Assembly: GCA_905339155.1 (NCBI GenBank)
Contig: CAJPFJ010000044.1
Coordinates: forward strand, 1 to 64,000
From: Methanosarcinales archaeon
GTDB taxonomy: Archaea > Halobacteriota > Methanosarcinia > Methanosarcinales > Methanoperedenaceae
Reading direction: 5' to 3'
DNA: 64,000 nucleotides
Every line of letters begins with the position of its first letter. Positions within the stretch are counted from its first letter, which is position 1. A program made the position numbers and the translations under genes. Shown piece after piece: positions 37,345 to 49,494 of the stretch. Below the pieces are notes generated by a model. It was given only the letters and a program-made list of their open reading frames with translations. It did no database searches and had not been told where the DNA came from.

Positions 37345-38313
37345 ATGAAAGAAGAATTTACGGAAATAATCGAAGCATCAAGACCAACTGTAACTGTTAT
37401 CGGTCTTGGGGGAGCGGGAAATAATATCATAACATTCCTTTCTGAAAAAAACATTGCCGGTGCAAAAATCATTGCGGCAAATTCTGATATCAGCCATCTT
37501 ATACTTCAGAAAGCTGACAAATTAATGCTCCTCGGAAAAAAACGAAGCAAGGGTAAAGGATGCGGGGGATTCCCGGAAGTTGGGGCAGAATGCGCCCGCG
37601 AAAGTACGGAAGATATAAGAAAAGAACTTGAAGGAGCAAATATCGTATTTATCGTCGCAGGTCTTGGGGGTGGGACAGGCACAGGTTCTGCTCCGGTCGT
37701 TGCTGAAATTTCACGTTCCATGGGCGCACTCACAATAGCCTGCCTGACAATGCCCTTTGAAATTGAGTCCTTGAGGCGCGAAAACGCCAAAAAAGCCATT
37801 CGCGCTCTTACAGGAACATGTGATTCAGTCGTTTTGATAGATAACTCAAAACTCAGGCAAGCAGCAGGAAACCTGCCTCTAAAGGCGGCTTTTGCCGTGG
37901 CAAATTCGTTAATCGGGGCATTCATTAAAAGTGTTACTGAAACCATCACCATCCCGAGCCTTATGAACCTTGATTTTGCTGATTTAAAAGCGGTGCTTGA
38001 AAAAGGAGGTGTTTCCTCATTCGGGATCGGGGAATCAGAAGGTCCGGACCGCGTACAAAAAGCAGTATTAAAAGCAGTATCCGCTCCTCTTCTGGATATT
38101 CCTAACCTTGGATCTGCGCATGGTCTGCTGATCCATATCAATGGCGGGCAGGACCTGACGCTTGAAGAAGTGGCGCATGTCGGTGAATTAATGGCGAAAC
38201 AGTTGCCAGGTACAAAAAGAATAATCTGGGGCGCCAATGTGGATGAGACCATGACCGGGCGCATCCGCATCATGGCATTGTTCGCAAGTGTCGGCAACCC
38301 TTTTGGGGAATAA
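37345..38313 (+). CDS. FtsZ-family tubulin homologue, second paralogue
   Basis: A 322-residue FtsZ-type GTPase. The nucleotide-binding loops are VIGLGGAGNNII (about 18-29), AGLGGGTGTGSAPVV (about 106-120, the tubulin signature) and TMPFEIESLRRENAKKAI. The synergy loop MNLDFADLKAVLEKGG (about 207-222) needed for GTP hydrolysis is intact. Compared with the FtsZ at 48276 it is shorter by about 60 residues, lacks the long C-terminal tail that recruits partners, and has a divergent N-terminal region with a GKKRSKGKGCGG insert instead of GLGAGG. It may be an archaeal FtsZ2- or FtsZ3-like paralogue or a regulatory homologue. It stands alone between divergent and convergent neighbours, not in a division cluster. 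Confidence 0.9.
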   Translation: MKEEFTEIIEASRPTVTVIGLGGAGNNIITFLSEKNIAGAKIIAANSDISHLILQKADKLMLLGKKRSKGKGCGGFPEVGAECARESTEDIRKELEGANIVFIVAGLGGGTGTGSAPVVAEISRSMGALTIACLTMPFEIESLRRENAKKAIRALTGTCDSVVLIDNSKLRQAAGNLPLKAAFAVANSLIGAFIKSVTETITIPSLMNLDFADLKAVLEKGGVSSFGIGESEGPDRVQKAVLKAVSAPLLDIPNLGSAHGLLIHINGGQDLTLEEVAHVGELMAKQLPGTKRIIWGANVDETMTGRIRIMALFASVGNPFGE

Positions 38314-47859: not shown

Positions 47860-47945
47860 ATACTTTTATATATCATAGCGTCAGACAGTATGTCAGACAA
47901 CTGTCATACAAGTGTCGCACAAATGGCGTACAATTGTAGCAACTT
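47860..47945 (+). promoter_or_regulatory. TATA box and five 11-bp-spaced direct repeats before the RHH-ftsZ pair
   Basis: CTTTTATATATCAT (47863-47876) is the TATA region. GTCAGACA (47880-47887), GTCAGACA (47892-47899), GTCATACA (47903-47910), GTCGCACA (47914-47921) and GGCGTACA (47925-47932) follow, spaced 12, 11, 11 and 11 bp, so all sit on about the same face of the helix. A degenerate sixth, GTAGCAAC, begins at 47936. The array covers the predicted transcription start, fitting a cooperative repressor such as the downstream ribbon-helix-helix protein. Confidence 0.75.
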
Positions 47946-48014
47946 TTGATGACCCCGTCTAAAACTATGAAAATCTCAGGGTTCATCAAACCTCCCACAG
48001 GGAGCTACCAAAAT

Positions 48015-48263
48015 ATGCAAAGAATTACACTAAGGCTCCCGGAACAGCAATTAAAAATGATCGACATGTTAGTTGAGTTTGGCGAATTTCCGTCCGCTAG
48101 CGAAGCAATCAGGACGGCTATAAGAGATTTAATCGATCAAAGAAGTGAAAAATTGGTTGGCAGGATGCAATTATTTGACAGGGCAAAAGAGCAGTCAAAG
48201 AATGCAGAGTCATTCTTGCGCTTAAAAGAAGAACAAGAGAAGGAATATAAGACAATCATCTGA
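48015..48263 (+). CDS. Ribbon-helix-helix regulator upstream of ftsZ (CdrS-like)
   Basis: A short DNA-binding protein: MQRITLRLPEQQLKMIDMLV gives the antiparallel strand and first helix, and GEFPSASEAIRTAIRDLIDQ the second helix of an RHH fold. It then has a charged helical tail of about 40 residues. Two upstream in-frame starts (47949 and 47967) would add 16-22 residues; 48015 best matches the family's N-terminus. In haloarchaea a similar small RHH protein, CdrS, is next to ftsZ2 and regulates division genes; here it precedes ftsZ by 12 bp, so the same arrangement exists. Repeats 80-130 bp upstream are candidate autoregulatory sites. Confidence 0.83.
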   Translation: MQRITLRLPEQQLKMIDMLVEFGEFPSASEAIRTAIRDLIDQRSEKLVGRMQLFDRAKEQSKNAESFLRLKEEQEKEYKTII

Positions 48264-48275
48264 GGGGATGAATAT

Positions 48276-49430
48276 ATGGAATCATTTGTACAGGACGCAT
48301 TAAAATTTAAAGAAAAGGAACAACTTTTCAAGCAGGCGGCATGTGGCTCGTCTGAAGAGATGGATGAATTTGGAACACCAAAGATCGTTGTAGTCGGATG
48401 CGGCGGGGGCGGTAATAATACAGTGAATCGTCTTTACAATATTGGCGTTGCAGGTGCAGATACTATTGCGATAAACACAGATAAGATCCATCTGGATATC
48501 ACCCAGGCAGATAAGAAGATCTTGATCGGCAAATCAATAACAAGGGGATTGGGCGCAGGCGGGTTCCCGGAAGTCGGAAGAAGAGCGGCCGAACTTGCAA
48601 GGGGAACACTCGAAGATGTTCTGAAGGATGCAAACCTTGTATTCGTCACAGCAGGCATGGGCGGCGGAACAGGAACAGGTGTCGCGCCAGTAGTCGCACA
48701 GGTCGCAAAAGACCAGGGCGCAATAGTTATCGGAATGGTCACAAGCCCGTTCAAGGTTGAGCGCTCAAGGATGTTTAAGGCTGAGGAAGGTTTGGATGAA
48801 CTGAGAAAAGCAGCAGATACCGTAATAGTTCTCGATAATAACAGGCTTCTTGATTATGTTCCCAACCTGCCAATTGACCAGGCATTCTCAGTAATGGACC
48901 AGTTGATATCTGAAACCGTGAAAGGTATAACCGAAACAATCACCCAGCCGTCATTGATAAACCTGGACTACGCAGATGTCAGGGCTATAATGAAGGGCGG
49001 AGGACTTGCAGTAATGCTTGTCGGCGAGGCAAAGGGACAGGATAAGGCAAAGGAAGTAGTAAGAGCTGCTTTGAACCATCCGCTGCTTGATGTGGATACA
49101 AAGGGAGCAACTGGTTGCCTGCTCCACATAACTGGTGGAACCGATATGTCTCTCCATGAGGCAGAACAGATCGCTTCATCCCTTACTTATGAACTCGACT
49201 CACATGCAAATGTTATATGGGGCGCAAGGGTAAAGAAGGAATATGAGGGCAAGGTACGCTGCATGGCGATCATGACAGGTATCCATTCAGCGCAGATCAT
49301 GGGGCCAAAGGCAGACAGCAATCCAATGAGAAACAGCGCCTCTTCGGTAGAACAGAAAATCAAAGTGGCAGTAGCATCTACCAGGAATAATAGCAGGAAC
49401 AGGGGCTCAATAATCGACCAGATCTTTTGA
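48276..49430 (+). CDS. ftsZ: Cell division protein FtsZ
   Basis: A 384-residue FtsZ. The GTP-binding loops are [15 protein letters not shown] (about 36-50), [15 protein letters not shown] and the tubulin signature [14 protein letters not shown] (about 127-140); the catalytic synergy loop is [12 protein letters not shown] (about 227-238). The C-terminal linker and tail (about 340-384, low complexity, ending RGSIIDQIF) could bind partners. It forms the division ring. It is the second gene after the RHH regulator and is followed by a strong hairpin terminator, so the transcript is probably just this pair. Confidence 0.97.
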
Positions 49431-49461: not shown

Positions 49462-49494
49462 ATCCGACAATATTTTTGTCGGATTTCTTTTTTT
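49462..49494 (+). terminator. Hairpin and T-run after ftsZ
   Basis: ATCCGACA (49462-49469) pairs with TGTCGGAT (49477-49484) around a 7-base loop, followed by TTTCTTTTTTT to 49494. The stem is eight perfect pairs ending in a T-rich run, suitable for termination on the plus strand. Confidence 0.75.

Follow-up and report, generated by a model that had tools for sequence, protein, structure and literature searches.

The pairing of the RHH protein CdrS with FtsZ2 is already known, as are RHH operator arrays as a kind. The closest described network is that of the haloarchaea, in which activation of ftsZ1 and ftsZ2 has been attributed to CdrS (PMC8406309, PMC7439475) and CdrL has been mapped to the cdrS-ftsZ2 promoter of Halobacterium (PMC7439475). 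In ChIP-seq of Haloferax volcanii CdrS, the site at ftsZ1 mapped to -50 and the motif was symmetric; the published list of targets includes genes of the ftsZ1, hisB and PRC-domain types, with the cdrS promoter itself missing from the list (PMC8406309). Archaeal viruses encode RHH proteins that shut down their own promoters by occluding them and that form oligomers along the DNA (PMC5569661). The open-licence literature yielded no earlier report of an array with a GTC-N-GAC unit and 11-bp spacing on a cdrS promoter, and no report of a CdrS operator outside the haloarchaea, the ChIP motif being derived from a single haloarchaeon. Here we describe such an array at the cdrS-ftsZ promoter of a Methanosarcinales archaeon, within a 64,000-nucleotide stretch (the window).

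The array and the genes it precedes

The features of the promoter, leader and genes are as follows.

47865..47872, + strand: TATA-like element TTTATATA of the cdrS-ftsZ promoter, recognised by sequence; a TATA-like element also lies 5' of the array in relatives
47880..47886, + strand: unit 1, GTCAGAC, 3' of the TATA box and 5' of the predicted start site; kept in relatives
47892..47898, + strand: unit 2, GTCAGAC, a 12-bp step from unit 1
47903..47909, + strand: unit 3, GTCATAC, an 11-bp step
47914..47920, + strand: unit 4, GTCGCAC, an 11-bp step
47925..47931, + strand: unit 5, GGCGTAC, an 11-bp step
47936..47942, + strand: unit 6, GTAGCAA, degenerate, an 11-bp step; relatives have a GTATGCC-type terminal unit in its place
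47945..47990, + strand: leader hairpin TTTGATGACCCC/GGGTTCATCAAA (also given as TTTGATGA/TCATCAAA), accessory
about 47992..48006, + strand: CTCCC-ACA-GGGAG hairpin over the presumed cdrS ribosome-binding site, accessory
48015..48263, + strand: cdrS-like RHH gene of 82 aa, encoding the presumed binding protein; Pfam RHH_1 above cut-off
48276..49430, + strand: ftsZ, FtsZ2-type; TIGR00065 equivalog above cut-off

The array comprises five good units and a degenerate sixth, all 3' of the TATA box, between 47880 and 47942; TGATGAC at 47947 would be a seventh, but is doubtful. The unit is a degenerate 7-bp palindrome, GTC-N-GAC, with GTC and GAC forming the palindromic halves, and a matrix built from 377 units gives the consensus G T C A/T G/T A C A n n T. 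This palindromic form suits a symmetric RHH dimer. The transcription start site, inferred from the usual archaeal TATA-to-start distance, is predicted at about 47892-47897, with unit 1 on its 5' side and the remaining units 3' of it; since the cdrS ATG lies at 48015, the array occupies the core promoter and the early 5' leader and does not adjoin the start codon. The initial annotation had described five GTC-x-x-ACA repeats with an 11-12-bp period over the predicted transcription start. The period is borne out by steps of 12, 11, 11, 11 and 11 bp, as is the position, given that the units flank or cover the predicted start; the repeat had been correctly read, but the palindrome describes the unit better, and the five good units become six when the degenerate one is included.

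With a chain score that rewards 11-bp steps between units, the array scores 13.5, against a maximum of 7.5 in 20,000 dinucleotide shuffles and 5 at the second-best spot in the window, and chaining at other periods from 7 to 16 gives no more than 8.5. Across the whole of the source genome, for which our statements are based on pattern searches, a three-unit pattern with up to two mismatches finds the array and one weak, unrelated place. Because the units are degenerate, a generic repeat finder picks up no more than the GTCAGACA pair at the array and misses the rest of it. A bacterial promoter scan was set aside as not applicable to archaea.

The product of the gene that follows is a short protein with a single RHH domain (PF01402, 26.7 bits against a cut-off of 20.5), whose start ATG at 48015 is conserved (MQRITLRLPEQQ). 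Its best NCBIfam match is CdrS, NF058555 (E 1.4e-16), at 60.2 bits against a cut-off of 100, so that the equivalog assignment is not met; as NF058555 is named for the halobacterial protein, we refer to the gene as a CdrS-family homologue and not as an equivalog member. The AlphaFold model has a strand region at its N terminus, followed by helices at residues 10-21 and 28-81; its closest folds are the RHH domains of ParD and NikR, and sequence and fold searches of the PDB with the product return only generic RHH relatives. In alignments there is little or no variation at residues R3, T5 and R7 of the N-terminal strand, the positions with which RHH proteins read DNA. No close relative was found encoded in plasmid records. 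The gene is separated by 12 bp from ftsZ on the same strand, an adjacency kept in relatives, and the two presumably form one operon; 5' of cdrS lies a divergent gene for dihydropteroate synthase, so that the locus does not have the cdrL-adjacent arrangement. A terminator-like hairpin, ATCCGACAATATTTTTGTCGGAT followed by a T run, lies 3' of ftsZ (window 49462-49484, + strand).

The window also carries a second FtsZ-family gene (37345-38313, + strand, 322 aa) with tubulin GTPase and FtsZ_C domains. FtsZ-family matches number eight in the source genome, nine in G044, five in G041 and three or four in each of the other genomes searched. The array was not found at any of the FtsZ paralogues checked, including FtsZ1 in CdrS-bearing methanogens and ANME.

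Of the two leader hairpins, the one at 47945-47990 is common only to the nearest relatives (L002-L004, L011, L012 and L016), and the CTCCC-NNN-GGGAG form of the other is retained in most loci of the same family (relatives L001-L028), which hints at an extra translational control of cdrS. No Rfam family covering the leader was matched.

Conservation across archaea and decay with cdrS

RHH-ftsZ loci were gathered from the same order, from named genomes (ANME-2, GoM-Arc1, Methanosarcinaceae, Methanocellales and Methanoregula included) and from many families of the phylum; the named near relatives of the source genome are Candidatus Methanoperedens species. Helically phased units 3' of a TATA-like element are present in every CdrS-bearing family examined in the order and the phylum, with two or three up to about ten units per promoter. 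In a set of 89 non-redundant cdrS-ftsZ promoters, unit-to-unit distances peak at 11, 22, 33, 44 and 55 bp (195, 160, 117, 79 and 75 pairs, respectively), against an expectation of 3.1 pairs at 11 bp and of two to three across the five peak distances, and control stretches within ftsZ gave 0 pairs at 11 bp, 6 at 22 bp and 0 at 33 bp. Beyond this phylum, at least one exact unit is found in all 24 non-redundant RHH loci of the probable Thermoplasmatota (the phylum of G504), with 39 exact units against 2.7 expected and pairs at 10-11 bp; several of these loci show no ftsZ inside the fetched stretch. In outline, the array is conserved in what is probably a second phylum.

The array is also largely confined to cdrS. 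Exact two-unit matches in 60 relatives all lie at cdrS, and one-mismatch matches away from it in the same genomes are scattered, with a frequency close to that of a reversed control. The other three-unit matches in relatives fall at VapB/PIN toxin-antitoxin promoters, at unrelated genes and in gene interiors, and were rejected as a CdrS regulon. In three such VapB/PIN promoters (L248, L249 and L250), GTAAGAC and GTCTTAC stand 22 bp apart with a degenerate site in the middle, and these are probably antitoxin operators.

Taking a score of at least 6 as the threshold for co-occurrence, the array is present at 71 of the 73 non-haloarchaeal CdrS loci, the exceptions being L125 and L189, as against 2 of the 24 ftsZ2 loci that lack CdrS (Fisher 2e-17, a value that is only descriptive because the sequences are related). 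The latter come from 30 ftsZ2 loci taken from genomes that initially lacked a close CdrS hit: six proved to have a diverged RHH gene together with at least part of the array, and the remaining 24 lack an intact RHH gene. Both of the loci among these 24 that pass the threshold (L216 and L221) contain a cdrS remnant with several frameshifts next to an intact ftsZ, and in both the array is decayed and the TATA region unchanged. These pseudogene loci amount to a natural knock-out of cdrS. The array hence tracks the presence of an intact cdrS and decays with it.

The unit at haloarchaeal CdrS targets

Of 21 haloarchaeal ftsZ1 promoters, 14 contain two exact units 11 bp apart and 19 contain at least one exact unit. 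The pair lies immediately 5' of the TATA region; its distance of about 52 nt from the expected start fits the -50 of CdrS ChIP-seq (PMC8406309). In five Haloferacaceae genomes, belonging to Haloprofundus (assigned by plasmid similarity) and to another genus closest to Haloferax, exact GTCNGAC-N4-GTCNGAC occurs at 24 sites, against none for the reversed pattern. These pairs are found at ftsZ1 in all five genomes and at hisB and a PRC-domain gene in a single genome each. The match of the unit to the published CdrS motif rests on position and target genes, and not on a motif logo. Among the remaining pairs, several recur 5' of conserved genes of unknown function and a few lie inside genes. The recurrent exact pairs include those 5' of genes for DUF6432 (L359, L360, L363) and DUF7562 (L364, L365) proteins, which may be regarded as candidate CdrS targets in the Haloferacaceae.

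The haloarchaeal cdrS promoter carries a variant, GTAAGAC-N4-GTCTTAC, in the start-site region at 14 of 16 loci when small variants are allowed. It is absent from the array of the window, which does not therefore qualify as a CdrL-type operator. The haloarchaeal cdrS promoters (L177-L204) contain further single copies near -185, -57 and -25 of the cdrS start, which possibly constitute a looping operator for CdrL.

Predicted function and relation to known systems

The analysis establishes the array, its palindromic unit, their phasing and conservation, the dependence on cdrS, the near uniqueness of the array and the match to haloarchaeal CdrS targets. The conserved phasing, the loss in the absence of cdrS and the occurrence of the same pair at haloarchaeal targets suggest that the GTC-N-GAC unit is very probably the recognition site of CdrS, its binding being inferred. 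On the same evidence we regard it as highly probable that the array is an autoregulatory operator through which CdrS represses cdrS-ftsZ, with binding, cooperativity and repression all inferred. The locus has the properties expected of an autoregulatory RHH operator, namely several phased symmetric sites in the RHH gene's own promoter and dependence of these sites on the cognate gene (71/73 against 2/24). CdrS dimers would bind palindromic units one helical turn (11 bp) apart, and neighbouring dimers would share one face of the DNA, where they could bind cooperatively. With unit 1 between the TATA box and the start and the others 3' of it, a filled array should block the recruitment of RNA polymerase or initiation. 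Abundant CdrS would thereby lower cdrS-ftsZ transcription and tie the supply of FtsZ to the level of CdrS.

The initial annotation had proposed autoregulation of a CdrS-like switch, an archaeal division operator outside the haloarchaea, and phylogenetic footprinting in Methanosarcinales as a means of checking it. The footprinting was passed strongly in all CdrS-bearing families examined; the array is kept in Methanosarcinales as anticipated, but reaches far beyond that order. The proposal is supported: the footprinting and the co-occurrence with cdrS speak for a division operator outside the haloarchaea, and the published haloarchaeal ChIP-seq targets speak independently for its link to CdrS, with binding and the sign of regulation inferred.

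Repression is suggested by the way the array spans the predicted start, but its sign of action is not certain here, given that haloarchaeal CdrS has been described as an activator. An alternative, which appears unlikely without being negligible, is that CdrS uses the array as a positive or dual element, low occupancy activating and full occupancy repressing. It draws support from the reported activation of ftsZ1 and ftsZ2 (PMC8406309, PMC7439475), from the archaeal viral RHH protein AvtR, which activates and represses according to its concentration, and from the variation in unit quality along the array; however, the haloarchaeal ftsZ1 pair occupies the usual activator position 5' of the TATA box, whereas the units in the window all lie 3' of it, over the predicted start, in the usual position of a repressor. 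A further reservation about autoregulation by CdrS is that it has not been seen in the one clade tested, since the cdrS promoter is missing from the ChIP-seq list and CdrL is the reported binder there.

The example of CdrL on the cdrS-ftsZ2 promoter of Halobacterium (PMC7439475), together with three RHH-like matches from a profile search of the source genome, could also be taken to mean that another RHH protein or an unrelated factor occupies the array in place of CdrS. This is improbable: the neighbouring gene upstream is that for dihydropteroate synthase and not cdrL, CdrL has been reported as restricted to Halobacteria, the array follows cdrS across genomes and decays with it, and the GTC-N-GAC unit marks the published types of CdrS target in haloarchaea. 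The cell-division setting and the fact that phased RHH arrays are typical of plasmid partition sites (ParG, omega) might point to a centromere-like or nucleoid-organising site, a reading with very little to sustain it when the array lies in a promoter, just 3' of a TATA-like element and 5' of cdrS, with one array per genome and no partition ATPase gene recognised among the neighbours read. Equally poor are the prospects of the repeats acting in the RNA leader, through structure or translational control, for despite most units lying 3' of the predicted start and a foldable leader with a hidden ribosome-binding site, unit 1 is upstream of that start, the units are helically phased and palindromic, and the foldable part lies 3' of the array, is not common to other families and has no Rfam match.

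If CdrS does regulate its own operon through this array, as we favour, a conserved, readily recognised and nearly single-copy operator on cdrS-ftsZ yields a concrete prediction of negative feedback through cooperative binding; checking it would require only an 80-bp DNA and a single small protein, and scans of further archaeal genomes could use GTC-N-GAC as the recognition unit. The array may also suggest a possible origin of the haloarchaeal CdrL/CdrS network. We tentatively propose, as a possibility that falls short of a favoured conclusion, that the GTC-N-GAC array is an ancestral feedback switch of archaeal FtsZ-based division that predates the split between Halobacteriota and, probably, Thermoplasmatota, and that was rewired in haloarchaea. 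In the course of such rewiring, the operator of the cdrS promoter would have been altered and handed to CdrL, and the CdrS unit pair would have been relocated to an activating position at several promoters, that of ftsZ1 among them.

Among known systems, the ParD-type antitoxins and NikR, which are the nearest solved folds, share the RHH fold and dimeric DNA binding, but cdrS has neither a toxin partner nor a nickel domain and is paired with ftsZ. The bacterial proteins MetJ, Arc and omega likewise bind tandem palindromic or pseudo-palindromic RHH sites cooperatively; they differ in that the unit is 8 bp for MetJ and 7 bp for omega, and in having targets unrelated to division. The viral repressors F55, SvtR and AvtR are small RHH proteins that control their own promoters from positions covering the start site or the BRE, with proposed oligomerisation along DNA and, in F55, tandem repeats with an 11-base consensus (PMC5569661). 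Their genes are viral, their recognition sequences are different and their repeats are at most a few, whereas the cdrS arrays have up to about ten phased units and belong to a cellular division operon. The haloarchaeal CdrS/CdrL-FtsZ2 network resembles the present locus in its protein family, the cdrS-ftsZ2 gene order and the 11-bp geometry of 7-bp sites (PMC7439475, PMC8406309). Its cdrS promoter, however, has GTAAGAC-N4-GTCTTAC with distant single sites and is bound by CdrL, while its CdrS acts elsewhere and appears to activate; the locus in the window, by contrast, has a longer GTCNGAC array on the cdrS promoter itself, with no adjoining cdrL.
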